DNA from: an uncultured Hyphomonadaceae bacterium
Lineage (GTDB): Bacteria; Pseudomonadota; Alphaproteobacteria; Caulobacterales; Maricaulaceae
DNA length: 64,000 nt
Assembly: GCA_913058335.1 (NCBI GenBank)
Contig: CAJXPX010000012.1
Location: 1 to 64,000 of the forward strand
Direction: 5' to 3'
In this document: positions 223 to 44,065 of the stretch, piece after piece
How positions within the stretch are numbered: the first letter of the stretch is position 1
Layout of the letters: every line of letters begins with the position of its first letter
The notes under the pieces: model-generated
What the model saw: only the letters and a program-made list of their open reading frames with translations
Told to the model about the DNA's origin: nothing
The model's database searches: none
Position numbers and translations under genes: made by a program

Positions 223-2142
223 ATGAGCCGCGATAACCAGTTCAATGTGCGGCTCGGACGAATATTGTCGCCCAACGGGACGGGGCGTTTTGTGAGCTTT
301 TCAGGACAAGTGCGGAGAGCGGCGCAAAGGTCATCGCGGTCGTCAGGCAGACCCAGCCGGAAACAGGGCGCTATTGCCGAGCAATATTTTTCGCGCCGCG
401 TGATTGTTAAAGTGCACCTGGTGAAGATGGGCGCTTACGGCAAAGATTCGCAGCGTCATCATCTGAATTACATTCAAAGAGACAGCGCTGCCCGCGAAGG
501 CGAGACAGGTTTGCTCTACAGCCGGGATGAGGTGATGATTGATGGCGATGAGTTTCGCGAGCGGGGCCTTGATGACCGACATCAGTTCCGCGTTATTGTT
601 TCGCCCGAAGACGGAAAAGAATTCGGTGATCTTCGCACTTACACCCGAAACGTCATGGCGCAGATGGAACGCGACCTGGGCACGAAACTCGATTGGGTCG
701 CGGCTAATCATTATGACACGGCTAATCCACATAGCCATGTCGTTATCCGAGGCGTAACAGAGACAGGCTCAACGCTCATTATTCCGAGAGATTATATCTC
801 CCACGGCATGAGAGAGGCCGCCGAGCATGTCGCGACCTTAGAGCTTGGCCCAACCACCCAAATTGATGTCGCGAAAAAACTGGCGCTGTCAGTCAGGCAT
901 GACCGTTTCACATCAATTGATCGGGACTTACTGGCGAAGGCGCAATACCAAATCGTTGATTTGTCAAAGCTGCCACTGGATGGGTCTGACTGGTCACAGC
1001 GTTTTGAAAAATGGCGTGTGAAATATTTAAGCTCGCTGGGCCTTGCCGAGAAAATGGGGTTTGGCAAATGGCGACTTGATGACAATCTTGAACGCACGCT
1101 GCGCCGCATGGGTGATCGCGGCGACATCCTCAAAGCTTATCATCGGGCCATGAGCCGCACCAAACTCGACCGTAGCCTAGATAGCGAGCCCATATATGAC
1201 CCAGCGGAAAAGTTAGCTCGCCCCATCACCGGAAGAGTGATTGAAAAAGGCGTGCTGGATGATGTGAATGACCGAAGCTACATTGTCCTCGATACGCTGC
1301 AAGGCGAAGCTCTATTCGTTGAGACAGGCAAAGAAGCCAATCTCGCGCAAATAGAGCGCGGTATGGTCGTGACCGCAGGACCGCAAACATATGCGCCAAA
1401 GGCATCAGATTTAATCATCACTGACATCGCGTCTAAACGCGGCGGCATTTACAGCCCATCCTTTCACGAGATGAATGATCCGGGCGCGCGCGAGGAATTT
1501 ATCAAAGCCCATGTGCGGCGGTTAGAAGCCATGCGGCGTGCCGGTCATGCAGAACGGAATTCCGATGGGTCGTGGAATGTGCCTAAGGACTATCTCAAGC
1601 GCGTCGTGAAATATGAGACATCACGCAGTTTTGGAAATCCTGTTAAATTAGACATTCAGTCTCGCGCGCCGCTGGCGGGGCTTACGCAGACGATTGGCAA
1701 GACATGGCTTGATACTGAGTTGATGAAGGGTGGTGCCGAAAGCGATGCGTCAGGGTTTGGACAAGAGGTCGAGACCCTAAAGACGCAACGACAGAAGTTC
1801 CTGCTCTCACAAAAGCTCATTGAGCGGTCACCCGGGGTAACGCAAAGCACGCTCGATACGCTCGAACAGATGGATCTTGACAGGGCCGGTAAGGAGTTCA
1901 GCGAGCAATTCGGTAAGCTCTACAAAGCCGCCCCTGCATCCGGCCGTATTTCGGGTATATACCTCATGGCCATTCAGAGGCCGAGCGGAAAATATGCCGT
2001 CATCGAAAAATCCAAAGAGTTCACGCTCGTGCCGTGGCGGAGCGCGATAGACAGGAATTTGGGCAAATCTATTTCAGGCGTGGTGAAAGGTCAGACGATT
2101 TCATGGACTCTAACAAAGGCCAGAGGAAAAAGTATATCATAA
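223..2142 (+). CDS. VirD2-family relaxase with DUF3363 domain
   Basis: Conjugative relaxase expected to nick the element at oriT and lead the strand into the recipient. The HUH three-histidine motif is visible as HYDTANPHSHV, with H163, H170 and H172 as metal ligands. The rest of the 639 residues matches the DUF3363 extension typical of relaxases in trb-type ICEs, including a charged stretch around residues 330-450. It stands alone in front of a lipoprotein gene 13 bases downstream and is separated from traG by 15 kb of cargo. The start at 223 has only a weak upstream ribosome site, so a slightly later start is possible. Confidence 0.9.
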   Translation: MSRDNQFNVRLGRILSPNGTGRFVSFSGQVRRAAQRSSRSSGRPSRKQGAIAEQYFSRRVIVKVHLVKMGAYGKDSQRHHLNYIQRDSAAREGETGLLYSRDEVMIDGDEFRERGLDDRHQFRVIVSPEDGKEFGDLRTYTRNVMAQMERDLGTKLDWVAANHYDTANPHSHVVIRGVTETGSTLIIPRDYISHGMREAAEHVATLELGPTTQIDVAKKLALSVRHDRFTSIDRDLLAKAQYQIVDLSKLPLDGSDWSQRFEKWRVKYLSSLGLAEKMGFGKWRLDDNLERTLRRMGDRGDILKAYHRAMSRTKLDRSLDSEPIYDPAEKLARPITGRVIEKGVLDDVNDRSYIVLDTLQGEALFVETGKEANLAQIERGMVVTAGPQTYAPKASDLIITDIASKRGGIYSPSFHEMNDPGAREEFIKAHVRRLEAMRRAGHAERNSDGSWNVPKDYLKRVVKYETSRSFGNPVKLDIQSRAPLAGLTQTIGKTWLDTELMKGGAESDASGFGQEVETLKTQRQKFLLSQKLIERSPGVTQSTLDTLEQMDLDRAGKEFSEQFGKLYKAAPASGRISGIYLMAIQRPSGKYAVIEKSKEFTLVPWRSAIDRNLGKSISGVVKGQTISWTLTKARGKSIS

Positions 2143-2155
2143 ACGGAGGAAGATC

Positions 2156-2812
2156 ATGAATTATTCAATCAAAACGATTCTGTTATTATCCGGAGCCGCG
2201 ATACTATCGGCGTGCGGCGACGACCCGAAAGCGGCGAATAAAGCCAATTTTAAAAAGGCTTTGAATGCTCACTACGCCCAGATGAAACAATGCGTCAAAG
2301 TTGGAAGCAAGCCTAACTCAGACGGGATTATTCAGGAGTTCCGAACAGACGGCACTGTTAAAGATAAGCAGCTCATTTTCTATAATGGCCTTCTCAGTTT
2401 GGGGCTATTGGAAGCGGTCACCTACCAAAAGGATACGAAAAACTTCAGCGGGCAAGTTACAGGAAAAGCTGATTGGGTTGGTTATAAATTTTCCAACAAG
2501 GGCAAGACATATTTACGTCCTGCTGAGCTCGAAAACGGCGCTTTCAGCACAGGCGCGCGTCAACTTTGTTATGGTACGCCGCAGGTGGTTGAGATTGTCA
2601 ATTTCACCGCGCCTGCTGAAGCTATGGGCGTGAAGGTGAGTAATGTGCAATATACGTATAGGCTTGTTGATGTTGCCCCGTGGGCGAGCGATCCAGCCCT
2701 AACCAATCAATTTGAATGGCTTGGTGAAAGAGTCTCTAACAAGGGCATATCTAAAGATGATGATCTTGTGCTTAATAATAACGGCTGGGTACATCGTAGC
2801 GTTTTTAAATGA
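2156..2812 (+). CDS. Predicted lipoprotein of the conjugative element
   Basis: A 218-residue protein with an N-terminal hydrophobic signal and a lipobox, LSAC, placing the lipidated cysteine at residue 20. It should therefore be exported and anchored in a membrane. I do not recognise a domain in the mature part. A strong ribosome site (CGGAGGA) precedes the ATG and the gene follows the relaxase by 13 bases, so the two are probably co-transcribed. Lipoproteins in this position of conjugative elements can act in surface or entry exclusion (TrbK is the known example but is much shorter); that role here is only a guess. Confidence 0.75.
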   Translation: MNYSIKTILLLSGAAILSACGDDPKAANKANFKKALNAHYAQMKQCVKVGSKPNSDGIIQEFRTDGTVKDKQLIFYNGLLSLGLLEAVTYQKDTKNFSGQVTGKADWVGYKFSNKGKTYLRPAELENGAFSTGARQLCYGTPQVVEIVNFTAPAEAMGVKVSNVQYTYRLVDVAPWASDPALTNQFEWLGERVSNKGISKDDDLVLNNNGWVHRSVFK

Positions 2813-2894
2813 CCCCCCGCTCGTCTCAACTGGGGGCTTAGCGGACCTTCGGAGGTCGAAAAAAAACGATATCCATTCTGGACTAAAATTTGGT

Positions 2895-3401
2895 TTAAAT
2901 ATTTCGATATCGTTCAAGGCGTGTTTGCAACTCATCATCAGGCAACCAAACAAAAGGATCTTCAATGTATTTGTTGATTGCATCTATTAGAACGCGGAGA
3001 GGAGCTGTTTCATGTTCATAAATCAAATCTAAGAGCCAAAGCATTCCGTGTGACCTAACATCTTTTTGGCGAGCTAGATTTTTTAAATTTTCATCGCCGG
3101 TCAACAAGACGCAAGCCTCTGTATCCTCGGCCAGAACCAAGGCGAAATTATCATGGAGTGAAAGACGAGTAAATTCTTTACGATACTGATACGCTAGAGC
3201 AACCTGAGCACCGCTCAAAGTTTGGATCTTGAGGCCGCCATATAATAGGAATTGCTTTTCCTCATCAGTCAGAGAAAGCAATTCGTCTTCAAACAGTAAA
3301 TCAGGAATCACGAATTCGAACGGTAGCTCGAGCATGGCTCGAAATAAGCTACCCTTCTTCAGATCAATAAGACCAGAGCTATCCGTGATTACGATTTGCA
3401 T
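2895..3401 (-). CDS. PIN-domain protein (DUF3368-like), putative toxin nuclease
   Basis: A 168-residue protein with PIN-fold features: an N-terminal VITDSSG strand carrying the first acidic residue (D7), an acidic stretch near ELLSLTDEE, then LSLHDNFAL and a later TGDENLKNLA segment supplying further carboxylates. PIN proteins are Mg-dependent ribonucleases, often toxins. Its start codon overlaps the stop of the upstream XRE-ImmA/IrrE gene by one base (TGATG), so the pair is translationally coupled. This arrangement is a recognised two-gene module whose exact mode of action I do not know. It reads against the relaxase and lipoprotein genes. Confidence 0.8.
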   Translation of the reverse strand: MQIVITDSSGLIDLKKGSLFRAMLELPFEFVIPDLLFEDELLSLTDEEKQFLLYGGLKIQTLSGAQVALAYQYRKEFTRLSLHDNFALVLAEDTEACVLLTGDENLKNLARQKDVRSHGMLWLLDLIYEHETAPLRVLIDAINKYIEDPFVWLPDDELQTRLERYRNI

Positions 3402-4471
3402 CAGGCGTGTGCGGGGCCTTTTAGCTTCTCTTCGAGGTCTGACAAGGGCACGCGAAGTAATTCAACACCTTTGCTCAGTGAGATAAACCTTTCCGACAGG
3501 GCTCTTAAGCAAAGCCTTTCGAAACGTTTAGCTTTTTCTTGTGAACCGAGTTCCGCTTCTAATGGGTCAGGTTCTTCAAAACGCCAAGATTTAGCAAAGG
3601 TTCTAAATGCATAATTCACTGCGGTAGCACTCAGAATGCCCAATTGCTTCAAACGAACGAGAACTGCGGCAGCGCTGACGCGGTACATTCGCTTGATATC
3701 AAGAATTTCGGCATAACTAATGGACTTTCTGAATTCACCTATTTGGGCTCGAACATGGCTCGCTACCATTAAAAATGCGCCAGCAAACATGTCCGATGCT
3801 TTTTCATGATTGCAAGGAGAGCTTTCATCTATGAGCCTATGGGCGAGCTCGTGCGCTAAGGTAAAACGTCTTCGTTCTAAAGTCACATTTTGACTAATTA
3901 CGATTACAGGAACTTCCGATTTTCCATTACCGCGACGGACAATGCTAGTTAATCCAGAGAAGTCGTCAGGAAGATCAAGAATTAAGACTTTTATGCCTTG
4001 CTCTTCCAGTAGCTCGGTCATGTCTGGTATTGGGTCTTCGCCCAAGTTCCAAACTCTTCTGACTTCAATAGCCATGGCTTCAGCATCAGCTTCAGTTTTT
4101 AGGAAGTATGGTTTGCTCAAAGGCATTACCCATTCAGAGCTATTAAGCTGTAAAATGTCTTCGATCTCCAAATATCGTTCTAGGTGTTCAATAACGATAG
4201 CTTCAACCTGTGCTCGTTCTTGGGCGCTGGTGGTTGATTTTTTTCGAAATTCTACACCTAATAATTCTTCGACTTGGTTACTGAACAAAAAACTCAAGCT
4301 CACGCCGAGCTGTTTTGCAAGCAAAGATAATATATCAGATGACGGAGCCATCTCATTGCGTTCGTATTTCCCGATGGCTTGTGCACTTACGCGGCCATCA
4401 ATGGTATCTGACAAGGAGCGAAGGGAATGCCCTGCTTTTTTCCTTGCCAATAATAGTCGCTCACCAAGCAT
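3401..4471 (-). CDS. XRE-type HTH and ImmA/IrrE metallopeptidase fusion
   Basis: A 356-residue two-domain protein. Residues 1-65 form a Cro/CI-like helix-turn-helix (RLLLARKKAGHSLRSLSD, then IGKYERNEMAPS). Residues 150-260 form an IrrE/ImmA zinc peptidase with the HEXXH motif HELAH at 207-211. Such fusions act as self-cleaving or partner-cleaving regulators in phages, mobile elements and toxin-antitoxin-like pairs. It is the first gene of a two-gene minus-strand operon with the PIN protein, so it is probably the antitoxin or sensor-regulator. A palindrome at 4495-4529 just upstream could be its operator and would also sit over the divergent operon starting at 4600. Confidence 0.88.
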   Translation of the reverse strand: MLGERLLLARKKAGHSLRSLSDTIDGRVSAQAIGKYERNEMAPSSDILSLLAKQLGVSLSFLFSNQVEELLGVEFRKKSTTSAQERAQVEAIVIEHLERYLEIEDILQLNSSEWVMPLSKPYFLKTEADAEAMAIEVRRVWNLGEDPIPDMTELLEEQGIKVLILDLPDDFSGLTSIVRRGNGKSEVPVIVISQNVTLERRRFTLAHELAHRLIDESSPCNHEKASDMFAGAFLMVASHVRAQIGEFRKSISYAEILDIKRMYRVSAAAVLVRLKQLGILSATAVNYAFRTFAKSWRFEEPDPLEAELGSQEKAKRFERLCLRALSERFISLSKGVELLRVPLSDLEEKLKGPAHA

Positions 4472-4494
4472 TTTTCATATCCTTGTCTCCCAGG

Positions 4495-4529
4495 GTTTAC
4501 AAATTATAATCTATGATATATATGTAAAC
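4495..4529. promoter_or_regulatory. Divergent promoter region with GTTTACA palindrome
   Basis: Perfect 7-base arms GTTTACA (4495-4501) and TGTAAAC (4523-4529) flank a very AT-rich 21-base centre. Each arm contains TTTACA, a good -35 element: on plus it is followed after 17 bases by TATATG (4519-4524); on minus a TATAAT (4508-4503) lies 14 bases away, short for a normal spacer. The site lies between the XRE gene and the micro-gene at 4600. Its position suits an operator for the XRE protein controlling both directions. This is inference from layout. Confidence 0.45.
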
Positions 4530-4599
4530 CTATCAGTGGTTCATGTCAAGGATTTCTGTGTAATTTTAGAAGCTAAAACCAACCTTAGGAGAATGCAAA

Positions 4600-4773
4600 A
4601 TGGCAACTAACCCACCAACCGGAGACGGACATCGCAAAGGAGCAGTAAGAGGACGCTCTCAAACCCAGACACCATATGGGCACTATGTGAAGCGCAATGC
4701 TGGAACAGGACGTTTTATGGATGTCAAAACATCAAGCAAAACGCCCTTTAAGGGCGTTCGCAAGGAAAGATAG
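4600..4773 (+). CDS. Small conserved-type protein (57 aa), first gene of candidate defence operon
   Basis: ATG at 4600 is preceded by AGGAG at 4587-4591, eight bases upstream. The 57-residue product is basic and polar, starts MATNPPTGDGHRKGAVRGR and ends in TPFKGVRKER, with no membrane segment. I recall unannotated small proteins with the same NPPTGD...RFMD...KGVRKE pattern in many bacteria, but know no function. The stop overlaps the GTG start of the next gene (TAGTG), so it is translationally coupled. A perfect hairpin (AACGCCC/GGGCGTT, 4740-4758) lies in its last codons, just before the downstream ribosome site. Confidence 0.7.
   Translation: MATNPPTGDGHRKGAVRGRSQTQTPYGHYVKRNAGTGRFMDVKTSSKTPFKGVRKER
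4740..4758 (+). promoter_or_regulatory. Hairpin before the coupled GTG start
   Basis: AACGCCC (4740-4746) and GGGCGTT (4752-4758) pair perfectly around a TTTAA loop. The hairpin lies inside the end of the 57-residue gene and ends 14 bases before the GTG start of the YdjM-like gene. It could tune coupled translation, or be an accident of the TPFKGV codons. No T tract follows, so it is not a terminator. Confidence 0.3.
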
Positions 4774-5123
4774 TGCCCGGAAGAGCAACCCATGAACTTG
4801 CTGGCTCCTTCACTGCGATGGCGGTCGCGGCTTCAATGCCGGGGCCTACCTTTGCAAGTGTGGGTGCCAGTTTCTTCATAGGAAAGGATGCCGGGCGTAT
4901 CCCAGACTTGTTAGAGCCGGCGACATGCCCGAATCACCGAAGATTTTTCCACAGCTGGGTGGCTTTAGTAGCCATGAGTTATGGTTGGAAGAAAGCGTAT
5001 GATTGGGAACCAGAAACCGATTTAGAGAAATTTCTTCGATTCATCGCTTTAGTTGGGGGAGCAGCAGCAATTTCGCACCTCGTATTAGATTCCCTTACAC
5101 CCAATTCATTGCCCTTAATTTAG
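4773..5123 (+). CDS. YdjM-like membrane metal-dependent hydrolase
   Basis: A 116-residue protein starting with GTG that overlaps the previous stop; AAGGAAAG just upstream serves as ribosome site. It resembles the YdjM/LexA-regulated membrane metal hydrolase family: an early histidine (H7), PDLLEP around 44-49, NHRRFFHS at 54-61 and SHLVLDSLTP at 101-110. These Asp/Glu/His clusters are the family's presumed metal ligands. Hydrophobic stretches near 12-37, 58-70 and 89-104 suggest membrane association. It is shorter than E. coli YdjM (about 196 aa). In this operon it may be an effector acting at the membrane; the substrate is unknown. Confidence 0.75.
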   Translation: MPGRATHELAGSFTAMAVAASMPGPTFASVGASFFIGKDAGRIPDLLEPATCPNHRRFFHSWVALVAMSYGWKKAYDWEPETDLEKFLRFIALVGGAAAISHLVLDSLTPNSLPLI

Positions 5124-5135
5124 TGAGTTGAAAAC

Positions 5136-5819
5136 ATGTCATTCCGAATTATTCATCTAAGGAAGTTACTCCGAGCTTTCAATGAACCTGAAAATAGGAA
5201 AATTACTTTATTGCGTAGTGACATTCGAAGTGAGTTAAAAAAGCGTTCAGGGTTCTCATCAAAAGGTGGAGACTTTCATGGGCCTTTTTGGAGCGATGCA
5301 AAAAACCATGCATCTGGTGAGATTGACCTCAGCATCGCAACGCTGGATCGGATTGCAAAGAATGAAGCTCGAGGCCGTTTATACCCAGAACTTACGGAGG
5401 GATTTCTAGAGTGGTGGCATAATAAACGCCGGACTCGAAATGAACCCATTTCAGCATTCCCATACACAGTAAAAAAACGTTTTGAGATCGATGAGTTAGG
5501 CGCTGTGGTAAAGGTAGAAAACTTGCTTTCCATATTGATTGGCGACCCGAATTTGGGACCTCAAGGCAAGAGATTGATATACCCCTACTTTAGTGAGGAG
5601 CCTATTTTAGACGAGAAGACTGCTCGATTAGGCCTCTGGCTTTTGTGCGAAGCGTTGCCAGAATTTGAGCCTGAAGATTTGAGAATACTTGACGTTATGC
5701 GGGCGAGAGCATTTTCGCTTTCGGGATCTCCGCTAACTGGCATCGAAGAACATGAATTTAAAAAGAAATACGAAAGACTCATAGATGAGTGGGAAGCGCT
5801 CAGTGAGCAGTATGGTTAG
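5136..5819 (+). CDS. Unrecognised 227-aa protein in candidate defence operon
   Basis: I do not recognise a family. The protein is soluble-looking, 227 residues, without a signal or membrane segment. The N-terminal half is basic (LRKLLRAFNEPENRK, LKKRSGFSSKGGDFHG) and contains several aromatic residues near FLEWWHNKRR; the C-terminal half is acidic with EFEPEDLRILD and a final helical EFKKKYERLIDEWEALSE. A basic N-terminus followed by an acidic helical C-terminus would suit nucleic-acid contact plus a protein interaction, but this is speculation. It lies 12 bases after the YdjM-like gene and 34 bases before the DUF6338 gene in the same direction. The ribosome site is weak. Confidence 0.75.
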   Translation: MSFRIIHLRKLLRAFNEPENRKITLLRSDIRSELKKRSGFSSKGGDFHGPFWSDAKNHASGEIDLSIATLDRIAKNEARGRLYPELTEGFLEWWHNKRRTRNEPISAFPYTVKKRFEIDELGAVVKVENLLSILIGDPNLGPQGKRLIYPYFSEEPILDEKTARLGLWLLCEALPEFEPEDLRILDVMRARAFSLSGSPLTGIEEHEFKKKYERLIDEWEALSEQYG

Positions 5820-5853
5820 CGTGATGGCGATGAATTAAGACGCAGGTATACAA

Positions 5854-6489
5854 ATGGAATTATTAACTCAAGAGAATTTCGAATTTGCTATCCAATCATT
5901 ATTGCCTGGGTTCATTGCCTTGGCATGTTTTCTGATGGCGTTCCGGACCAGGATGCCAACGCCATTTTATACTATCGTTTTAAGTGTTGTTGTAAGTTTT
6001 TTCTACATTAACTTACTGACTCTAGCGAAATATTCATTGGGCGGAGGTTACTCATCCCCAAAGCCTTTGGCGGATTTTGTAAACCTAGTTTTTTTGCCAG
6101 CCATTCTAGGCTACTTAGCAGGAGTCTTGTGGGAGAGGCTTTCACCAAAATTGAGGTCACTTGGAATACCTATTAGGTCACCTATACCAACGGCATGGGA
6201 CTACGCTTTCTCTAAGAGGTCGCATTGTTGGGTTCTTATTCGGTTTAAATCAGATCGTGATTCGATAAAGGGCTGGTATTGTGGCGATTCATTCGTCGGG
6301 ACTGATCTCACTTTTCGCGACATATTTTTAACTCAAGTACATGAGTACAACGAGGTTCAAGAAAACGATGAGAGTGGGTGGCTTCCATGCGACCCACCTC
6401 TCGAAATTTGGATAAACGGAGATGATATACTCATGATAGAATTCGATAATGGTCATCAAAAGGAGACGAAAAATGACGAAGCCAACTAA
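5854..6489 (+). CDS. DUF6338 family membrane protein
   Basis: A 211-residue protein with two or three N-terminal membrane segments (about residues 14-30, 36-60 and 80-100) and a cytosolic C-terminal half with a PTAWDYAF start, a WVLIRFKSD strand and a final LEIWINGDDILMIEFDNG strand. This layout matches the DUF6338 family, membrane proteins of unknown function that I associate with accessory and defence regions. It overlaps the following 47-residue gene by 17 bases. Within the operon it is the clearest membrane anchor. A membrane-effector role in abortive infection is possible but unsupported beyond context. Confidence 0.75.
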   Translation: MELLTQENFEFAIQSLLPGFIALACFLMAFRTRMPTPFYTIVLSVVVSFFYINLLTLAKYSLGGGYSSPKPLADFVNLVFLPAILGYLAGVLWERLSPKLRSLGIPIRSPIPTAWDYAFSKRSHCWVLIRFKSDRDSIKGWYCGDSFVGTDLTFRDIFLTQVHEYNEVQENDESGWLPCDPPLEIWINGDDILMIEFDNGHQKETKNDEAN

Positions 6490-6616
6490 CAAGGACAGAT
6501 ATGTTCCGTTAAAAAAAGGGTATCAATCGGTCGCCCCAAAGAAGGATATTGGTGCCGGGTACCAAGGTCCAACCAGCACAAACGTGCCAACCACCAAGCC
6601 GTCAAAGCGTAAATAA
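6473..6616 (+). CDS. Small basic protein (47 aa), last gene of candidate defence operon
   Basis: ATG at 6473 with AAGGAG at 6460-6465 directly upstream, inside the DUF6338 coding end and in a different frame. The 47-residue product is basic and rich in Pro, Thr, Gly and Tyr, with KKGYQSV and AGYQGPTSTN segments and a PSKRK end; it is likely disordered. I recall similar GYQP-type micro-proteins next to DUF6338 genes but know no function. The good ribosome site and tight overlap favour a real gene. A hairpin follows at 6626-6661. Confidence 0.6.
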   Translation: MTKPTNKDRYVPLKKGYQSVAPKKDIGAGYQGPTSTNVPTTKPSKRK

Positions 6617-6625
6617 AGTTTAGCT

Positions 6626-6661
6626 CTTCCCGATGCAGACCCTGCAGTCTGAGTTGGGAAG
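6626..6661 (+). terminator. Hairpin after the 47-aa gene
   Basis: CTTCCC (6626-6631) pairs with GGGAAG (6656-6661), and an inner CAGAC pairs with GTCTG around a CCTGCA loop. It begins ten bases after the operon's last stop codon. No clear T tract follows, so termination efficiency is uncertain; the hairpin may rather protect the mRNA end. Confidence 0.35.
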
Positions 6662-6812
6662 AACTTATGTCTTATAAGTGGTATTTCCGTTCTAAAATTG
6701 GAAATTACATCAGCTGGGAAATCACAGATCATAAGAATAGTCTTTCTATGGTTGCGTAACCTGTGAACAAACTTCAAGCTGACAATGTGCTAAGTAATGT
6801 GGATGGATAGAA

Positions 6813-9800
6813 ATGAAGTGTCTTGATGGAACGATTTATTTGAGTGCAACTGACCTGGTTGGACATCTAAACTGCAATCGCCTGACTGAATTAAATGTTC
6901 AGGTTGCAACCGGTCAAATGGATAAACCAGATAATTTCGATCCTTTATTAGAAATTCTTCGAGAGCGGGGTCATCGGCATGAACAGGCATACTTCGAACA
7001 TTTAAAATCCTCTGGGTGTGACATTGTTGTTATTGAAGGTGTTGACATTGATGCGGCCAGCCTTGAAGCGACGATAGAAGCAATGCAAGAAGGTAGAGAA
7101 ATCATTGCTCAAGCCGCGCTTTTGAATGATCGCTGGCGTGGACGCGCAGATTTTTTACGAAGAATTCAAGTGCCCAGTATTTTGGGTTCGTATTCTTATG
7201 AAATTATCGATACCAAGCTTGCTAGAGAGACTAAGGGCGGCACAGTGTTGCAACTTTGTCTCTATGCTGAAATGTTAGGGTCAATCCAAGGTATAGTGCC
7301 TGAATATGTTTATGTTATAGCTCCTTGGTCAGACTTTGCCGATCAAAAATACCGTGTCGATGATTATTATGCGTACTATAGAACGGTAAAATTAGCGGCT
7401 GAGAACAACGCTATTGCCGACATAGAAGTGTCAACTTATCCTGACCCTAAGCCACATTGTGATATCTGCAGCTGGCAGTCACATTGTGAGGCACGTAGAA
7501 GGGATGACGATCATCTTTGCCTTGTAGCGAATATTTCCAAAAACCAAATTTCAGAGTTGCAAAATAACGGATATGATACTCTTCAGAAGCTGGGAGAGAT
7601 TGATGGAGATGTCCCATTCGTTCCGTTAAAGGGCTCCATTCAGGCGCTGGAGAGAACCAAAGGTCAGGCGAAGATCCAACTCTTGGGACGAACTACAGGC
7701 ACAGCTCAATTTGAATTGTTAGATATCATTCCTGAGTTTGGTCTGGCAGCTTTGCCTGAACCGTCACTAGGAGATATATTTTTCGACATCGAAAGCGATC
7801 AATTCGTTGGCGAAAACGGTCTCGAGTATTTGTTTGGTTACTGTTTCCATGATGAAGATGGAGGACTTCAATACGTGGCTGATTGGGCATTCGATATGGC
7901 CAAAGAAAAAGCCATGTTTGAGCGGTTTATTGCGTTTGTTAGTCAACGTCGATCCGAGTTCCCTGACATGCACATATATCATTTCGGAGCTTACGAACAA
8001 AGTGCACTAAAACGCTTGATGGGCCGTTACGCAAGCTGTGAAAATGAAGTGGATAATCTATTGCGCGGGCGAGTGATGATTGATCTCTTAAGCGTGGTTC
8101 GAAATGGTATAAGGGCAAGCGTGGAGAGTTATTCACTCAAAAAACTTGAACCGTTTTACGAATTTGAGCGTGAAGTGAAGCTCAGGGACGCTAATATTGC
8201 TCTAACCAAACTGTCCTCCGGACTCGAGTTGGATGATGTTCAATCAATTGATGAGCCTACGAAGCTAGTCGTTCAAGGCTATAATAGTGACGATTGTGTT
8301 TCCACTTTGGAATTAAGAGATTGGCTAGAGGCCGTACGCGAAGAACAAGTAACAACTGGAGAGGACATACCTCGTCCAGCGCCTGGCCAAGACGGACCGA
8401 GTGAAGAAATCAGTGAACAACAGGCACGTGTCCAAGCTCTTATTGCTCAACTAATACTAAATCTACCTATCGATCCTAGTGAACGCACAGCTGAACAACA
8501 AGCAATTTGGATTCTGGCACATATAATTGATTGGCATCGACGTGAATTGAAGGCTGTTTATTGGGAAGGGTTTCGGTTGCAAGATCTAAGCGCGGTTGAA
8601 ATGGCCAACGAAAAAACCGCCATTTCTGGATTGACTCATATGGAGGTAGTCGGTCAGACGCCAACGGGAATTCCTGTAGATCGGTATCTGTTCGAACCTC
8701 AGGACTCTGATATTCGAGGCGGTGAAAGAGTCTTTGCGACTGGTGGCGAGGCCTTAGGAAGCATTGTAAATATTTCTTTTGAAGAGAATACTGTAGATAT
8801 AAAAAAGACCAAGAAGACTGCCTTGCTTCATCCAGATGCGTTTTACGCTCATACTGTTATTAAACCGAAAGACCAGGCTGCCGCTCTTTTTCGACTTGGA
8901 CAGTATGTTGCGGAAAATGGAATTCTAGGTGATGGCGAGTACCGAGCAGCAAGAGATTTGCTTTTGAAAATCCCGCTGAATACCGGTGATGAAGCATTCC
9001 AAAACTCTGACGAAAATACGCTGGAAGCTGGTTTGCGACTAACTCATCTTATGAATGGTGGCATACTACCAATTCAAGGACCTCCAGGGACGGGGAAATC
9101 TTATACAGGCGCGCGAATGATATGTGAGTTGGTAAAGGCTGGAAAAAGTGTCGGAATTACAGCGAACAGTCATAAGGTGATACGCAACCTGTTAGACGAG
9201 GTTATTGATGCTGCTCCGACTATGGGAGTTGATATTAATTGTGCTCAAAAGCCCGAGACAGGAAATAAAGAAGAGGACGGCACTTCACTGCAGTTTATCC
9301 GCGACAATGAAAAATTGATAGCTTCTGTTAATAACGGTGATGCTCAAGTTGCTGCAGCAACCCCGTTTTTTTGGGCACGAAAAGATGTTGAGGCATTGGT
9401 AGACGTGTTATTCGTTGATGAAGCTGGCCAAATGTCATTGGCAAACGCACTTGCAATCTCTGGCTCTGCCGAAACTATTGTACTTTTGGGGGATCCACAG
9501 CAACTAGAGCAACCTATCAAAGGGTCCCACCCGGACGGAACCGAAGTATCAGCTCTTGACCATCTGATTGGAACTGAGCAAACAATATCAGTTTCTCAAG
9601 GCTTATTTTTGGAAACTTCATACCGCATGGCTCCGGAAATCCGCGCTTTGGACTCTGAGCTATTCTATAATGGTAAATTGGAATCTGTAGCAGGGTGTGA
9701 GCTGCATGAAATCCGTGCGGATGGGATTATTACAGGTTCGGGGCTCAGGTATCTTCCAGTCCCTCATATAGGTAATACGAGCTCTTCAGTTGAGGAAGCG

Positions 9801-10226
9801 GAAACAGTCGCGCATTTGGTTGCTAAAATACTCGGAAGCAATCCTGGCTGGGTCGACCGAAAAGGCGTCGAACGTATCATAGAGCTAAAAGATATTTTGA
9901 TTATTGCTCCTTATAATGCTCAGGTTTTTGAGATTAAAAAACTAATACCCGATGCTAAGGTTGGAACCGTCGACAAATTTCAAGGGCAAGAAGCACCAAT
10001 AGCAATCTACTCAATGGCAACATCTTCTCATTCAGATGCGCCAAGAGGTATGGAATTTTTATATAGCGCCAATAGATTTAATGTCGCGATTTCTAGAGCG
10101 AAATGCGTATCGGTTCTAGTTGCATCTCCTAATGTCTTTGAAGCTGAATGCAGAACGCCACGACAGATGCAATTAGCAAATGCATTTTGTAGGTTTCTTG
10201 AAGTTTCTGAGTTGATTAACCTTTAG
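6813..10226 (+). CDS. TM0106-family RecB-like nuclease / RNase H-like / SF1 helicase fusion
   Basis: A 1137-residue multi-domain enzyme. Residues 1-230 are a PD-(D/E)XK nuclease of the TM0106/Cas4-like type: C21 with C216, C219 and C225 form a likely 4Fe-4S site, and RAD113 with D133-x-K135 are the catalytic residues. From about 320 an RNase H-like segment begins (DIFFDIESD). The last 400 residues are a UPF1/DNA2-type SF1 helicase: GPPGTGKS near 757, FVDEAGQM near 867, ETSYRM, VDKFQGQE and NVAISRAK. Such proteins likely unwind and cut DNA or RNA ends. It lies about 200 bases after the micro-gene operon and may belong to it or be an independent defence gene. Confidence 0.9.
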   Translation: MKCLDGTIYLSATDLVGHLNCNRLTELNVQVATGQMDKPDNFDPLLEILRERGHRHEQAYFEHLKSSGCDIVVIEGVDIDAASLEATIEAMQEGREIIAQAALLNDRWRGRADFLRRIQVPSILGSYSYEIIDTKLARETKGGTVLQLCLYAEMLGSIQGIVPEYVYVIAPWSDFADQKYRVDDYYAYYRTVKLAAENNAIADIEVSTYPDPKPHCDICSWQSHCEARRRDDDHLCLVANISKNQISELQNNGYDTLQKLGEIDGDVPFVPLKGSIQALERTKGQAKIQLLGRTTGTAQFELLDIIPEFGLAALPEPSLGDIFFDIESDQFVGENGLEYLFGYCFHDEDGGLQYVADWAFDMAKEKAMFERFIAFVSQRRSEFPDMHIYHFGAYEQSALKRLMGRYASCENEVDNLLRGRVMIDLLSVVRNGIRASVESYSLKKLEPFYEFEREVKLRDANIALTKLSSGLELDDVQSIDEPTKLVVQGYNSDDCVSTLELRDWLEAVREEQVTTGEDIPRPAPGQDGPSEEISEQQARVQALIAQLILNLPIDPSERTAEQQAIWILAHIIDWHRRELKAVYWEGFRLQDLSAVEMANEKTAISGLTHMEVVGQTPTGIPVDRYLFEPQDSDIRGGERVFATGGEALGSIVNISFEENTVDIKKTKKTALLHPDAFYAHTVIKPKDQAAALFRLGQYVAENGILGDGEYRAARDLLLKIPLNTGDEAFQNSDENTLEAGLRLTHLMNGGILPIQGPPGTGKSYTGARMICELVKAGKSVGITANSHKVIRNLLDEVIDAAPTMGVDINCAQKPETGNKEEDGTSLQFIRDNEKLIASVNNGDAQVAAATPFFWARKDVEALVDVLFVDEAGQMSLANALAISGSAETIVLLGDPQQLEQPIKGSHPDGTEVSALDHLIGTEQTISVSQGLFLETSYRMAPEIRALDSELFYNGKLESVAGCELHEIRADGIITGSGLRYLPVPHIGNTSSSVEEAETVAHLVAKILGSNPGWVDRKGVERIIELKDILIIAPYNAQVFEIKKLIPDAKVGTVDKFQGQEAPIAIYSMATSSHSDAPRGMEFLYSANRFNVAISRAKCVSVLVASPNVFEAECRTPRQMQLANAFCRFLEVSELINL

Positions 10227-12818: not shown

Positions 12819-13214
12819 TCATAGTTTATTACTGACCAATGCCTCGATAATTGGACATTCTGGCGCATCTCCCTTTTCACACTCATTCGAGATTGCGAGT
12901 AAGGAATCTTCTAGTAATTTGAGATCTGATATTTTCTGCGAAATTGATTTCAGGTGATTGATTGTCAAGGCGTGAATGTCGCCACATGTGTAGTCATTAG
13001 AGTCGACCATTGACAATAAATTGCGAATTTCTTCTATCGAGAACCCCAATTCACGAGTGCGTAGAATAAACCTCAATCGAGACTGATCGTCTTTTGAATA
13101 AACTCTATGTCCGGCCGGAGTTCTGCCCGGCGCATGTAATATCCCGATTTTTTCATAGTACCGAATAGTTTCAATATTACATCCTGATAATTTAGCTAAC
13201 TCACCTCGTTTCAT
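12819..13214 (-). CDS. merR: Mercury-responsive MerR regulator
   Basis: A 131-residue MerR-family protein with N-terminal winged helix (GELAKLSGCNIETIRYYEKIG) and dimer helix. The three cysteines used by Tn501/Tn21 MerR to bind Hg(II) are matched by C77 (YTCGD), C112 (NECEKG) and C120 (ECPII), which separates it from ZntR or CueR relatives. It is divergent from merTPFA across a 121-base gap containing a long-spacer promoter with a dyad, the classic MerR arrangement. It should repress without mercury and activate with it by untwisting that promoter. A solitary merR distant from the operon's end is normal. Confidence 0.92.
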   Translation of the reverse strand: MKRGELAKLSGCNIETIRYYEKIGILHAPGRTPAGHRVYSKDDQSRLRFILRTRELGFSIEEIRNLLSMVDSNDYTCGDIHALTINHLKSISQKISDLKLLEDSLLAISNECEKGDAPECPIIEALVSNKL

Positions 13215-13255
13215 CGCATCTCTCTTTTTTGTGAACGCGTAACTGATTTAATCGC

Positions 13256-13286
13256 TTGAACCTGTAGTTAGTACAGGGCGTACAAA
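13256..13286 (+). promoter_or_regulatory. MerR-type mer promoter and operator
   Basis: TTGAAC (13256-13261) and TACAAA (13281-13286) are separated by 19 bases, the over-long spacer typical of MerR-activated promoters. The spacer carries the dyad CCTGTA-N5-TACAGG (13261-13277), with perfect 6-base arms, as expected for the MerR operator. It lies between divergent merR and merT. Confidence 0.75.
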
Positions 13287-13335
13287 GCTCAAAGCAGAAT
13301 ATTGAAGTGCATTACGCTAGATTTAAAGGTTGCCG

Positions 13336-13722
13336 ATGAACCGTACCAAGCAATTTCTCTCAGAACCGCAACGGTCTATCCGGAGACGCCGGCTGTTTGC
13401 CACAGGTGGCGTCGTGGGCGCACTACTCGCCTCGTCCTGCTGTATCGTGCCGCTCATTCTTATCAGCATGGGGGTTTCAGGGGCGTGGATTGGTAACTTC
13501 ACCGTGCTGGAACCGTACAAACCTATCTTTGTTGGAATCGCGGTTTTGTTTATTGGAGCGGGGTTTTGGCACGTCTATTTCAAGAAAATTGATACCTGTG
13601 AAGACGGAAGTTATTGCGCGAAACCGCAATCCTCCCGCCTTACCAAACTTGCATTATGGCTGGCGACCTTCGCCGTAATATTAGCTCTGACTATCGATTA
13701 TTGGGCCCCCTTATTTTACTAG
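13336..13722 (+). CDS. merT: Mercuric ion transporter MerT
   Basis: Inner-membrane protein of 128 residues that passes Hg(II) from MerP to MerA. Three hydrophobic helices are visible (about 25-47, 62-82, 106-124). The first carries the vicinal pair C35-C36 (ASSCCIVP) and the loop after the second carries C88 and C94 (DTCEDGSYC), both pairs diagnostic of MerT. I chose the ATG at 13336 (AAAGG upstream) over a TTG two codons earlier. First gene of merT-merP-merF-merA. Confidence 0.93.
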   Translation: MNRTKQFLSEPQRSIRRRRLFATGGVVGALLASSCCIVPLILISMGVSGAWIGNFTVLEPYKPIFVGIAVLFIGAGFWHVYFKKIDTCEDGSYCAKPQSSRLTKLALWLATFAVILALTIDYWAPLFY

Positions 13723-13734
13723 AAAGGTAGTATA

Positions 13735-14067
13735 ATGACTAAAACTCTTTTGAATTTAACGAGCATCGCCGTCTTGGCGACAGGTGCCATCGCAGTTGGT
13801 AGCAATACACTCATGACCGCGAACGCTCAAACTCAAGTGGTGGCGACAGAGGCCAGTTCATCTTTTGCAATTGATAAAATGACCTGTGCCACATGTCCAA
13901 TCTCGGTCAAGAAAGCCATGAAACGCGTTGACGGTGTTAAATCAGTGGAAGTCGATTATAAAACCAAAATCGCAACCGTTGTTTATGACCCGTCAAAAAC
14001 GACGCCCACGGAAATAGCGGCAGCCTCCACTGACGTTGGGTATCCGGCAAATGAAGTGACGAGCTAG
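13735..14067 (+). CDS. merP: Periplasmic mercury-binding protein MerP
   Basis: A 110-residue secreted HMA-domain protein. The N-terminal 31 residues form a signal peptide ending in TANAQ, and the binding motif DKMTCATCPISV places the metal cysteines at C51 and C54. MerP scavenges Hg(II) in the periplasm and hands it to MerT or MerF. It starts 12 bases after merT with AAAGG as ribosome site. The mature part keeps the ferredoxin-like HMA pattern through GVKSVEVDYKTKIATVVYD. Confidence 0.93.
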   Translation: MTKTLLNLTSIAVLATGAIAVGSNTLMTANAQTQVVATEASSSFAIDKMTCATCPISVKKAMKRVDGVKSVEVDYKTKIATVVYDPSKTTPTEIAAASTDVGYPANEVTS

Positions 14068-14070
14068 AGC

Positions 14071-14280
14071 ATGAAAACTCGCTCCTTGCTGGGTGTCGGC
14101 CTTATCGGGACGATTGTCGCCGCTCTGTGCTGTTTTACACCCGTCCTTGTCGTGCTCTTCGGCATTGTCGGCTTATCAGCGCTAACTGGCTATATAGATT
14201 ACGTCCTTTTACCGGCCCTTGCCCTCTTCGTCCTTTTGACGATTTACGCCCTATGGCGACGTCAAAAGAACTCGAATTAA
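14071..14280 (+). CDS. merF: Mercury transport protein MerF
   Basis: A 69-residue protein with two membrane helices (about 8-33 and 42-62). The vicinal cysteines C20-C21 in VAALCCFTPV are the conserved mercury pair of the first helix in MerF. It gives a second route for Hg(II) into the cytosol. It lies three bases after merP and 23 bases before merA, so it is part of the mer operon. Confidence 0.88.
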   Translation: MKTRSLLGVGLIGTIVAALCCFTPVLVVLFGIVGLSALTGYIDYVLLPALALFVLLTIYALWRRQKNSN

Positions 14281-14303
14281 TTATATTCTAAAAAGGAAAT
14301 TAC

Positions 14304-15725
14304 ATGTCAGATTGCAGCGCCGTGGGCGAAGAAAATTCGTTTGACCTTATCATTGTCGGGGCCGGTTCCGCAGGGTTCTCTGCTGCCATTACCGCCGCCG
14401 AACTGGGGAAAACTGTGGCTGTTATTGGCGGAGGCACGATTGGCGGCACATGCGTTAATGTCGGGTGCGTCCCGTCAAAAACCATGATCCGTGCGGCGGA
14501 TGTCATGCAGGCGGGTGCGTCGGCAAAAAGATTTAATGGAATCAGCGCAGACGCAAAACTTGTTAGCTGGGCAGATGTTGTGGCTCATAAAAATGAACTC
14601 GTCTGGGAGCTACGTCAGGCCAAATATACCGATTTGCTACCGCAATATGAGACCCTCAAATATATTGAAGGTATGGGAAAACTTGTGAGCGGCGGTGTGG
14701 CCGTTGATGGAAAGCTTTATATATCTAACAAAATCATCATCACTACAGGATCACATTCGCATCTTCCGCTTATTCAAGGCATTCAAAACGTCCCGCATTT
14801 GGATAGCACGAGCGCACTTGACCTGCCTGACCTGCCGAAATCCATGATTGTCATTGGCGCCGGCGTAATTGGTTGTGAGTTAGGACAGATGTTTGCTCGC
14901 ATGGGAACAAAAGTAACGCTACTCTGTCGGTCAAAGGTTCTCCCGGGTGCAGAACCAGAAATTAGCGAGGCGCTTACCGGATACCTAAGAGATGAAGGCA
15001 TTCAAGTGCACTGCGGCTCTGTCTATGAATCCATAAAAGCCGACGGTGAAATCTGCCTGAGTTATCAATACAAGGGTGAAGTCCGGCAGTTACGTGCGGA
15101 GCATATTTTACTGGCAACCGGGCGTAAAGCCAATACGGCTGGTCTCGGACTTAAAGAAATAGGCGTTAAATTGGCCAAAAACGGCGGTATCATTGTCGAT
15201 GATTCCATGCAGAGCAATATCCCTGGAATATATGCAGCGGGCGACGTCACAGGACGAGACGAATATGTCTATATGGCAGCTTATGGGGCCAAGCTCGCAG
15301 CGCAAAACGCCATAAATGGGAATACTAAAACATACAATAATAATACGATGCCTGCCGTCGTTTTTACCGATCCAAATTATGCAACTGTCGGCCTTACGGA
15401 AGCACAAGCGCGGGCAAAGGGAATAGAAGTTAAAACCTCGACGCTTGATCTCAAACATGTCCCACGGGCTTTGGCCGCGCGTGATACGCGCGGCTTAATC
15501 AAACTCATCGCCGACGCGCGTGATGGCAAGTTAATTGGCGCGCATATTCTGGCACCTGAAGGTGCTGATACAATCCAAACCGCTGCGCTTGCAATAAAAA
15601 TAGGTATGACTTTCAATGCACTCGGAGAGATGATTTTCCCCTACCTGACCACCGTAGAGGGGTTGAAGCTAGCGGCGCAGACTTTCGATAAGGATGTCAC
15701 CAAGCTTTCATGCTGTGCGGGTTAA
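14304..15725 (+). CDS. merA: Mercuric reductase MerA
   Basis: FAD/NADPH-dependent reductase of Hg(II) to volatile Hg(0). The 473-residue protein has an N-terminal FAD dinucleotide fold (IIVGAGSAGFSA), redox cysteines C50 and C55 in GGTCVNVGCVPSK, an NADPH fold (VIGAGVIGCELGQ), a second FAD motif (GIYAAGDVTG) and the C-terminal vicinal cysteines C470-C471 in LSCCAG, which identify MerA among its relatives. It lacks the N-terminal HMA domain of Tn501 MerA, as many MerA proteins do. AAGGA precedes the ATG. Terminal enzyme of the mer operon. Confidence 0.95.
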   Translation: MSDCSAVGEENSFDLIIVGAGSAGFSAAITAAELGKTVAVIGGGTIGGTCVNVGCVPSKTMIRAADVMQAGASAKRFNGISADAKLVSWADVVAHKNELVWELRQAKYTDLLPQYETLKYIEGMGKLVSGGVAVDGKLYISNKIIITTGSHSHLPLIQGIQNVPHLDSTSALDLPDLPKSMIVIGAGVIGCELGQMFARMGTKVTLLCRSKVLPGAEPEISEALTGYLRDEGIQVHCGSVYESIKADGEICLSYQYKGEVRQLRAEHILLATGRKANTAGLGLKEIGVKLAKNGGIIVDDSMQSNIPGIYAAGDVTGRDEYVYMAAYGAKLAAQNAINGNTKTYNNNTMPAVVFTDPNYATVGLTEAQARAKGIEVKTSTLDLKHVPRALAARDTRGLIKLIADARDGKLIGAHILAPEGADTIQTAALAIKIGMTFNALGEMIFPYLTTVEGLKLAAQTFDKDVTKLSCCAG

Positions 15726-15800
15726 TTCAATCTCGGACGAATAAAGGACGATCGTTTGTCATGGGCCAAGGACTTAGCGCTATAGAAAAGAGGACGTAAA

Positions 15801-17159
15801 ATGCAAATCCAAAAGTTTGACCTTATTGTTATGGGCGTTGGTATGGCGGCTGTTAACGCCGCAAATAAATGCGCGTCAGCGGGCTGGAAAGTGGCCGTCA
15901 TAGATGAGCTGCCTTATGGCGGGACATGTGCATTAAGGGGATGCGATCCCAAAAAAATGTTGAGGCGTGGCGCCGAAATAATTGATGCCGCAACTTTGAT
16001 GAAAGGCAAAGGGATTGAGGCCGGCAATCTCGCGATTAATTGGTCGGGCCTGCTTGCATTCAAGCGCACTTTCACTGAAAAAATGCCCCCAAAAATAGAA
16101 TCTGGTCTTGATAAAAAAGGGGTTACCACACTGCACGGAAATGCAAAATTTGTCGCTGAGAACGTCATTGAAATTGACGGCGAAACCCGTTTGGAAGGAA
16201 AAAATATACTCATTGCAACAGGTGCGAAGCCTCGGGAAATGAGCATGCCGGGCGCAGAATATCTTACTGAAAGCACTGAGTTCTTAGAATTGGAAATTCT
16301 TCCTAAAAAAATCATTTTTGTTGGCGGCGGGTTTATCTCATTTGAGTTCGCCCATATCGCAGCTCGGGCTGGCAGTGATGTTCATATTATCGACCGCGGT
16401 GAGCGGCCCCTCAAAGGTTTTGAGGTTGCCCACGTAAATAAATTGCTGAAGCGAAGCGCAGAGGCCAGGATTAATTTTATTCCGCTAACCAATCTCGTAT
16501 CTATATCCCCACAAGGTGACGGGTATTCAGTAGTATTGGATACTGACGGCAAGCAGCGAAGCCATACAGCTGACCTGATCGTGCATGGTGCGGGACGAAC
16601 TCCCGCTATTGATAACCTTGATTTGGATAAGGCTGGCATAGAGTTCGGCACTCACGGTGTCGCGGTTAATGATTATCTCCAAAGCAAATCCAACCCTGCA
16701 GTTTATGCGGCAGGAGATGCCGCCGATACAAAAGGCTTACCCCTTACGCCTGTTGCTGTATTTGAGGGTAAGGTCGCTGCCTCAAATATGATTAAGGGTA
16801 ATCACATTAAACCCGATTATAGTGGTGTGCCAACAGTCGTATTTACAATTCCCGAATTGGCACGCGTTGGGATGACGGAAGAAGAAGCAAAAGCGGCTGG
16901 CTATAAGCTTCGGATTGCCACGAACGACACAAGCAACTGGTATTCTAATCTTAGAATAGGAGAAACTTGCGCAGCAACTAAGGTCATTATCGATGATGAA
17001 ACCGATAAAATATTAGGCGCGCACCTTCTAGGGCCCGAATATGCTGAAATTATCAATTTTTTTAGTCTCGCTATTCGGCTTCAGTTAACGGCGAGTGATT
17101 TGAAAAAGATGGTGAGTGCTTATCCGAGCGTCGGCTCTGATTTAGGATCGATGTTGTAA
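15801..17159 (+). CDS. Second flavin disulfide reductase of the mer block
   Basis: A 452-residue pyridine nucleotide-disulfide oxidoreductase related to MerA and glutathione reductase. The FAD fold, redox pair C43/C48 (GGTCALRGCDPKK), NAD(P)H fold (IFVGGGFISFEFA) and second FAD motif (VYAAGDAADT) are present. It lacks the vicinal C-terminal cysteines of MerA, and the usual HPT catalytic segment of the dimerisation domain reads SAYPSVGS, so the active-site His seems replaced. It is 75 bases after merA with GAGGACG upstream. It may reduce low-molecular-weight thiols or persulfides to support mercury and sulfide stress; the substrate is unknown. Confidence 0.85.
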   Translation: MQIQKFDLIVMGVGMAAVNAANKCASAGWKVAVIDELPYGGTCALRGCDPKKMLRRGAEIIDAATLMKGKGIEAGNLAINWSGLLAFKRTFTEKMPPKIESGLDKKGVTTLHGNAKFVAENVIEIDGETRLEGKNILIATGAKPREMSMPGAEYLTESTEFLELEILPKKIIFVGGGFISFEFAHIAARAGSDVHIIDRGERPLKGFEVAHVNKLLKRSAEARINFIPLTNLVSISPQGDGYSVVLDTDGKQRSHTADLIVHGAGRTPAIDNLDLDKAGIEFGTHGVAVNDYLQSKSNPAVYAAGDAADTKGLPLTPVAVFEGKVAASNMIKGNHIKPDYSGVPTVVFTIPELARVGMTEEEAKAAGYKLRIATNDTSNWYSNLRIGETCAATKVIIDDETDKILGAHLLGPEYAEIINFFSLAIRLQLTASDLKKMVSAYPSVGSDLGSML

Positions 17160-17268: not shown

Positions 17269-17518
17269 ATAAAAAGCTTTTCTATATAAAGCTCTTTGGT
17301 CTCCCACAGATCAATCTCCTTCAAACCTTTTCTCAATGAACCTGAATCCTTCTGTGCCTAGATGCAGGGAAATCGTCATGGGCAAATTGTTATTTTCACA
17401 AAAAATCACAGAACCTCATAGAAAGTCATAATGGTTCACGCGAATTCACTATTTAGGAACTAGACCGAAAATCCATTTTTCTGACAGCCTAAGTCCATCG
17501 CAAATGAAGGGCCTAGGA

Positions 17519-19579: not shown

Positions 19580-19581
19580 CG

Positions 19582-21704: not shown

Positions 21705-21714
21705 GGAATTTGGC

Positions 21715-26254: not shown

Positions 26255-26276
26255 ATTGGAATAGGAGGACAAGACA

Positions 26277-30244: not shown

Positions 30245-30320
30245 TGGTGCCCGAACCTGGATTTGAACCAGGGACACACGGATTTTCAATCCGTTGCTCT
30301 ACCAACTGAGCTATTCGGGC
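30245..30320 (-). tRNA. tRNA-Phe (GAA), probable ICE attachment gene
   Basis: A full cloverleaf reads on the minus strand: acceptor GCCCGAA/TTCGGGC, D arm GCTC/GAGC, anticodon stem ACGGA/TCCGT with loop TTGAAAA (anticodon GAA), T arm CCTGG/CCAGG around TTCAAAT, and encoded CCA. Its 3' end faces the conjugative element, the usual geometry for integration into tRNA genes. The gene is intact, as expected when the element restores the 3' half. Confidence 0.97.
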
Positions 30321-43977: not shown

Positions 43978-44065
43978 TTTATTCTTAAATCAAGATAATG
44001 TGGTTTCAATTTTTGCGAATAGGAAACACTTTAGCGGTTTCGAAGTTTCGCTAACCTCTAACATG

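Follow-up and report, generated by a model that had tools for sequence, protein, structure and literature searches.

The Mobile Unit and Its Recurrence

Is a row of five small genes in the cargo of a conjugative element an undescribed defence system? The question is raised by 64,000 nucleotides of contig CAJXPX010000012.1 from an uncultured Hyphomonadaceae bacterium (hereafter the window), in which a sequence-only reading had proposed a five-gene anti-invader operon. The five open reading frames (ORFs), of 57, 116, 227, 211 and 47 aa, are all present where that reading had placed them, on the plus strand. Judged by sequence comparison, the natural and mobile unit is a set of seven genes at 2895-6616, in which the minus strand encodes a PIN-like protein and an RmrA-type regulator, and a candidate operator separates these two genes from the five-gene operon. 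Its best-supported reading, which we hold to be fairly probable, is a controller-regulated, mobile cassette of immune type.

When nine window proteins were searched against all the loci fetched, one further complete copy was found (L051), on a 9150-base contig of a metagenome-assembled genome (MAG) labelled Robiginitomaculum. The gene order is the same, with identities of 88% for the PIN-like protein, 93% for RmrA, 89% for the 57-aa protein, 73% for the YdjM-like protein, 87% for the 227-aa protein, 79% for the DUF6338 protein and 70% for the 47-aa protein. The seven genes appear to be a mobile unit because L051 has all of them, in the same order, with changed flanks: its cassette is flanked by ORFs that read as transposase-like and by a gene of GmrSD type (GmrSD_N, E 1.4e-29), and neither the window's helicase nor the 218-aa protein encoded ahead of the window's cassette has a match there. 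A 16 kb segment of the window (44000-60000) had a best match of 246 bits in the L051 MAG and of at least 475 bits in each of 17 other genomes of the window's genus; by this simple yardstick the MAG, which may be incomplete, would lie outside that genus. The proposal that the five genes recur together beyond near relatives is thereby sustained, narrowly: the whole set stands in another genus, with altered flanks and beside a GmrSD-type gene, and it is rare.

The two copies were compared by the proportions of nonsynonymous and synonymous differences (pN/pS), which were 0.062/0.617 for the 57-aa, 0.130/0.566 for the 116-aa, 0.072/0.631 for the 227-aa, 0.123/0.723 for the 211-aa and 0.145/0.497 for the 47-aa gene. 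The five are more than chance ORFs, because changes are scarce at nonsynonymous sites and frequent at synonymous ones, and constraint at the protein level was observed in all seven cassette genes. The same figures bear on the simplest alternative, namely a patchwork assembled by chance from mobile genes that do not act together, whose two copies would stem from one transfer of a random arrangement. Two complete copies only, and the occurrence of each gene or pair elsewhere without the others, would agree with it; yet order, overlaps and operator are kept at a pS of 0.47-0.72, and since synonymous sites are so heavily diverged the arrangement has probably been long maintained, which leaves the patchwork very improbable.

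The unit differs in extent from the one first proposed. A nuclease-helicase and a toxin-like pair had been named as neighbours, and both were recognised, the first as a TM0106-type RecB-like nuclease-helicase and the second as the RmrA-type regulator with its PIN-like partner. By comparison with L051, the two divergent genes are members of the unit, and the nuclease-helicase (6813-10226), with no counterpart there, was excluded from it. Nor are the five genes one fixed system: the 57-aa and YdjM-like genes on one side, and the DUF6338 gene and its microgene on the other, form two pairs that can be separated; the 227-aa gene, too, is found without the others or near a TIR gene. In a locus of another family (L028) the genes of the PIN-like, RmrA, 57-aa and YdjM-like proteins are present and the payload genes are not. 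These comparisons of sequences support the modular build of the cassette and its proposed control.

A Divergent Regulator Pair and a Candidate Operator

The 356-aa regulator (3401..4471, minus strand) combines a helix-turn-helix (HTH) domain with an ImmA/M78 peptidase domain, as indicated by matches to HTH_3 (E 2.6e-10), Peptidase_M78 (E 3.5e-15) and the RmrA model PDLC03949 (E 1.1e-47); within its HELAH motif (207-211), H207, E208 and H211 are kept in the three proteins aligned, from the window, L051 and L028. It adjoins a 168-aa protein (2895..3401, minus strand), the candidate toxin of the pair, which we assign to the PIN type, as a candidate, from its acidic-residue pattern: D7, E38, D84 and TGD (101-103) are kept in the window, L051 (88% identity) and L028 (34%). 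Neither a Pfam nor an RmrT model matched this protein, and the match to PDC-S70 was weak (E 3.8e-4).

Between the divergent transcripts lies the inverted repeat GGTTTAC-N23-GTAAACC (4494..4530), the candidate operator, with one match in the window against 0.01 expected for a pattern that was picked after it had been seen. It occurs in seven of the 179 loci: four pieces of the window itself (L001, L025, L141, L176), L051, and L011 and L028, which are one place. The half-sites are thus kept in L051, and also in L028, there with a 26-base spacer, despite a regulator only 38% identical, and the candidate operator is found in three regulator-57-aa intergenic regions. A scan for promoters and terminators at 4400-6900 was not above shuffled sequences (four against 3.9 expected, and two against 2.3), and no RNA families were found at 2000-7200.

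In the part of the RosmerTA literature consulted, RmrA is described as an ImmA-type antitoxin of phage-defence systems, and ImmA antitoxins are reported to associate with PIN-like domains as well (PMC10440598). The cassette shares with RosmerTA an RmrA-type HTH-ImmA protein next to a candidate toxin of PIN-like pattern (PMC10440598) and differs in that a five-gene operon is transcribed divergently from the pair, with the candidate operator in between, and in the lack of an RmrT model match. As far as tested, the control of the cassette is of the RosmerTA type, and its payload is new in combination. From related regulators we infer that damage or single-stranded DNA (ssDNA) may relieve the repression.

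The same pair invites another explanation, in which PIN-RmrA is a working toxin-antitoxin, the whole serves to addict the host to the conjugative element or to stabilise that element, and the operon is accessory cargo or added toxicity that keeps the element. The adjacency of the PIN-like and ImmA-HTH genes, which is kept in L051 together with the operon and in L028 in the absence of the payload, speaks for it, as do the position of the cassette, with a relaxase on one side and further cargo on the other in an element that carries conjugation genes, and the plasmid homologues of the 227-aa gene near ParA. Addiction, however, does not exclude phage defence for such pairs, and it leaves unexplained why the 57-aa and YdjM-like genes are common to CBASS-type operons under other controllers. 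We regard it as unlikely.

The 57-aa Microprotein and the YdjM-like Gene

The 57-aa basic microprotein (4600..4773, plus strand, charge +9.7) is PDC-S38 of PADLOC, with all 57 positions of the profile matched (1-57/57, E 7.3e-31), and also phrog_12550; "PDC-S" presumably denotes a single-gene candidate. Its family has at least 586 relatives in the genome collection and others on 72 plasmid records and 16 phage records; in a sample of 398 genomes of the phylum it was present in 14 (own genome counted). The hosts include Bacteroidota, Actinomycetota and phages of Streptococcus and Staphylococcus. The name PDC-S38 was not found in the literature searched.

The neighbourhoods of 97 loci were examined, namely the best 80 of the at least 586 genome loci, six plasmid loci, ten other genome loci and the window; being mostly ranked by similarity to the query, with related hosts recurring, they are not independent. 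Four weak or partial loci (L023, L038, L039, L040) were dropped before the counts, and L032 and L107, probably one locus, were both kept. By position and clustering, the PDC-S38 gene comes first behind an immune-type controller in 54/97: a CapK/CapS-like pair lies directly ahead in 27 (gap 103-134 nt), and a WYL, XRE or RmrA gene lies opposite in 14, 10 and 3, respectively. The remaining loci are 28 with a Cys-rich microgene and 15 others. The XRE proteins were termed CapH-like from their place beside a peptidase cluster, one member of which was scanned (CapP, E 6.2e-50). The CapK/CapS naming relies on a weak GHKL ATPase match and a winged-HTH match, for one representative each, and on the published description; no STAS domain was detected in the representatives scanned. 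The cluster representatives include an HNH-SAVED effector, a DncV-like cyclase and an E2, with a CD-NTase family member in 20/97 loci and a SAVED member in 19/97. In the part of PMC13373217 consulted, CapK/CapS are described as controllers through which DNA damage acts on immune operons; of 443 cases of capKS, 348 are followed by an immune operon and 57 by a YegP homologue. A term search of the main text of that paper and of two WYL papers gave no mention of YdjM or of a small protein.

A YdjM-like cluster is present in 25 of the 97 loci, directly next to PDC-S38 in 23, and 15 of these 25 also carry SAVED and CD-NTase clusters. In the window this is the 116-aa gene of a putative metal-dependent hydrolase (4773..5123, plus strand, GTG start), matching PF04307 with 33.9 bits (cut-off 29) over profile positions 1-115 of 176 only. 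Residues H7, D45, E48, H55, H60, H102 and D106 are invariant in the 11 sequences aligned from the 25 loci, and may be metal ligands. The two genes are tightly joined: the TAG stop of the first and the GTG start of the second have one base in common in the window, L051 reads TAATG, and, counted from the first base of the stop, the distance to an in-frame start is 2-6 nt in 21/25 loci and 15 in two; the last two have no start nearby, the YdjM gene lying some 600 bases further on.

That the operon is a defence-type module is thus supported indirectly, by the promoter-proximal position of the 57-aa and YdjM-like genes in many immune-type operons, including those of the cyclic-oligonucleotide-based antiphage signalling system (CBASS). 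With the CapW, CapH+CapP and CapK+CapS operons (CBASS, Bub) the cassette shares a regulator beside the promoter and PDC-S38, often with YdjM, at the operon start; it differs in that the regulator is a single HTH-ImmA chain and the payload a RecB/Cas4-fold protein with DUF6338. The cassette is not CBASS, because no cyclase was found among the ten proteins scanned between 223 and 10226; these included no CD-NTase and no ubiquitin-like enzyme. Compared with the PADLOC entry, PDC-S38 is here a promoter-proximal companion of several controllers.

Several further observations concern this small protein. A second microprotein of ~68 aa containing Cys (KYFVNDNAQANGDHEVHREGCSWMP..., L032:6535-6741) occurs in 29/97 loci; in 28 of these it immediately precedes the 57-aa gene, and many of these loci are labelled Rhodobacteraceae, with carB or lepA close by. 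Its representative has no Pfam or PADLOC match. Two other loci (L092, L093) have a different ORF of 69-78 aa (MNGERYxGNxNTxEVHDLDNEQ...CxWCIGGSTR) ~225-260 bases upstream of PDC-S38. Relatives with 55-68% identity lie in the repressor-gene region of two temperate phages of Gram-positive bacteria, Streptococcus phage Javan48 (L177), there with an integrase, and Staphylococcus phage phi575 (L178), where the match is itself unannotated and overlaps a gene annotated on the opposite strand. A relationship of PDC-S38 to DUF2188 or YegP, both of which are found in similar positions, was dismissed, no profile similarity being found in comparisons in which the partners were single sequences.

The Payload: A Predicted Pseudonuclease and a Membrane Protein

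The 227-aa protein (5136..5819, plus strand) is predicted from a structure model (predicted local distance difference test, pLDDT, 79; built from 5 sequences) to be a pseudonuclease of the RecB/Cas4 fold, since RecB/Cas4-type nucleases take VIA ranks 1-37 (second look, 473 chains). This fold call is provisional because Foldseek gave no match against the PDB at E <= 0.001. A sequence search of the PDB with three alignments gave nothing significant (best E 0.056, 0.28 and 0.047). At the place read as the catalytic D/E-x-K motif of the RecB/AdnA/Dna2/Cas4/ACE1 fold, which was located by strand order, not by superposition, the nine homologues invariably have Y149-P/S150-Y151, so that the catalytic D/E-x-K is absent; at position 128, an earlier acidic site, 6/9 have D or E. 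With the predicted fold kept and the catalytic motif lost, the protein therefore probably acts by binding, either to a nucleic-acid structure or to a partner, and would not cut. A homologue comes after a TIR gene in Agrobacterium (L008), and another after PDC-S38, beside an XRE-CapP pair (L091, labelled Leptolyngbya, on a contig of coverage 4.3 that may be a contaminant). Among viral contigs, 16 pattern matches included no relatives. On two plasmids, DUF3800 genes lie near the homologues (L043:7012-7788 and L046:7879-8616).

The 211-aa protein (5854..6489, plus strand) matches DUF6338, PF19865 (76.2 bits, cut-off 26.5; E 3.4e-21); the proposed YdjM and DUF6338 assignments were therefore both correct. 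Its model shows three predicted transmembrane (TM) helices and an Sm/LSm-like domain with an N-terminal helix and a five-stranded barrel; a sequence search of the PDB had given weak Sm matches (E 0.11 and 0.17), in line with the later fold result. The positive-inside count is not decisive (two K/R in the first loop, two in the second and four after the third helix). MscS-type channels have three TM helices and an Sm-like middle domain; only this topology agrees, with no MscS-family Pfam match at E 1.

The last gene encodes a basic, presumably disordered microprotein of GYQ type and 47 aa (6473..6616, plus strand, charge +8.5), the partner of DUF6338. GGAG precedes 6473; read from an alternative ATG at 6449 the protein would have 55 aa, and in L051 an ATG near a comparable place would give 50 aa. 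We fetched 18 of the 26 genomes with a DUF6338 match besides our own, leaving out weak or fragmentary ones (G012, G070, G133, G203, G257, G316, G362). A short Pro/Gly/Ser-rich microgene follows DUF6338 in 17/20 loci against 7/138 control genes, a count with a composition cut-off and motif fixed after the ORFs had been seen, and omitting L159, a near copy of L160, and L170, with a broken frame. Twelve of the 13 microproteins are positively charged and 14 of the 15 DUF6338 C-domains negatively; the sole non-acidic DUF6338 is paired with the sole acidic partner (L164). In 11 pairs, among which the window and L051 are close relatives, the two charges were inversely correlated (Pearson -0.68, p 0.022; Spearman -0.60, p 0.050); the complementarity is suggestive only. 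In Mesorhizobium (L049), DUF6338 comes after a nucleotidyltransferase and a SLATT gene.

A predicted operon of Pseudomonas stutzeri, as described in the part of PMC10433244 consulted, contains a DUF6338 gene and three Pro-rich small proteins, expressed in aerobic and oxygen-limited growth and said not to be conserved beyond that species. DUF6338 with small-protein genes is common to both cases, likened by description and not against the sequences of PMC10433244; judged by the ORFs of the 17/20 loci, the pairing reaches across the phylum's genomes, beyond the published one-species restriction.

Proposed Mechanism and Its Weight

In the mechanism that we propose, the RmrA-type HTH-ImmA protein would bind the palindrome at 4494-4530 and repress its own transcript, with the PIN-like gene, together with the divergent five-gene operon, as the comparison of intergenic regions supports. 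By analogy with known regulators, a signal of invasion stress, most likely DNA damage or ssDNA, would trigger the ImmA peptidase part and lift the repression. The operon starts with PDC-S38, coupled to the YdjM-like hydrolase, the pair forming a front end whose position is shared by many operons. The payload, from its predicted folds, would be a sensor-effector set: the 227-aa protein probably recognises a nucleic-acid structure or partner; the membrane-anchored Sm-fold DUF6338 probably forms rings in the membrane and, once released, would damage or depolarise it, whereupon the cell stops; and the basic microprotein would bind the acidic cytosolic face of DUF6338 as plug, adaptor or assembly factor. 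Overall, for a stress-induced cassette of abortive-infection type in which the pseudonuclease senses and DUF6338 acts on the membrane, we see the case as evenly balanced; the sensor-effector mechanism in itself, derived from models, is tentative. Rather doubtful, as the boldest extension, is that DUF6338 and its microprotein represent a new class of membrane effector, a Sm-fold ring with three TM helices per subunit, held shut by a charge-complementary disordered microprotein and gated here by a dead RecB/Cas4-fold sensor, with PDC-S38 a general companion of stress-induced immune operons whatever the controller or effector.

A number of observations weigh against this interpretation. The whole set occurs in two (window and L051) of the 13 neighbourhoods of 227-aa homologues examined; a homologue was found in 1/249 genomes of the window's own order and in 1/199 of L051's order, in each case the genome itself; and plasmid homologues, with neighbourhoods viewed for 8 of 13 places, are often without other cassette genes (L043, L046). 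The 227-aa fold was matched by VIA at a root-mean-square deviation near 5 A, the DUF6338 model has a predicted template modelling score (pTM) of 0.57, and the best Foldseek matches of the two to the PDB were at E 2.5e-3 and 6.1e-3. Ring formation and channel activity of DUF6338 are pure inference. Among the PDC-S38 loci, the 28/97 of Cys-rich-microgene type are largely on Rhodobacteraceae-labelled contigs, and a carB cluster occurs in 14/97 and lepA in 9/97. Finally, by ORF reading, DUF6338 pairs often lie amid ordinary-looking chromosomal genes (e.g., L161, L165, L172, L175), so that DUF6338 need not be a defence effector.

This last point would fit a stress- or damage-response membrane operon without immune role, in which the task of the YdjM-like hydrolase and of DUF6338 would be envelope repair or remodelling after damage. 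The YdjM of E. coli is LexA-regulated, which counts in the same direction, as does the expression of the P. stutzeri small proteins in both growth regimes, as far as PMC10433244 was consulted. The recurrent immune-type neighbourhoods of PDC-S38-YdjM, the 227-aa homologue with TIR and the GmrSD gene flanking L051 argue against an envelope function alone, to which we give only a small chance.

As regards the immune-type cassette, the claim that it is undescribed stands in part. Its payload is new in combination, and no published description of this gene combination was found in the literature searched by family and system names, mostly at listing level; PDC-S38, by contrast, is already listed by PADLOC as a candidate, RmrA belongs to the known RosmerTA type, and a DUF6338-microprotein operon was seen by proteomics in one species. 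Three loose ends are joined here, PDC-S38 and DUF6338 without function and the 227-aa family without name, and each receives a testable role, respectively as companion of damage-induced immune operons, as Sm-fold membrane protein with a recurrent microprotein, and as pseudonuclease. Microproteins of 47-65 residues are easily overlooked, and defence constructs without them could therefore fail.

Context of the Cassette in the Element

As proposed, the cassette lies in AT-richer cargo of a conjugative element, the GC content of the region being 0.42-0.45 against 0.52-0.56 for the conjugation genes. The adjacent nuclease-helicase is a 1137-aa protein, a TM0106-family RecB-like nuclease fused to a superfamily 1 (SF1)-type helicase (TIGR03491, E 2.3e-70), with partial matches to the MkoA model. 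By ORF reading, mercury-resistance-like genes (MerR-, MerT/P- and reductase-like) follow at 12819-17159, and a VirB/Trb-type conjugation set lies on the same element at 17504-29295. A tRNA-Phe gene at 30245-30320 may be the integration site of the element.

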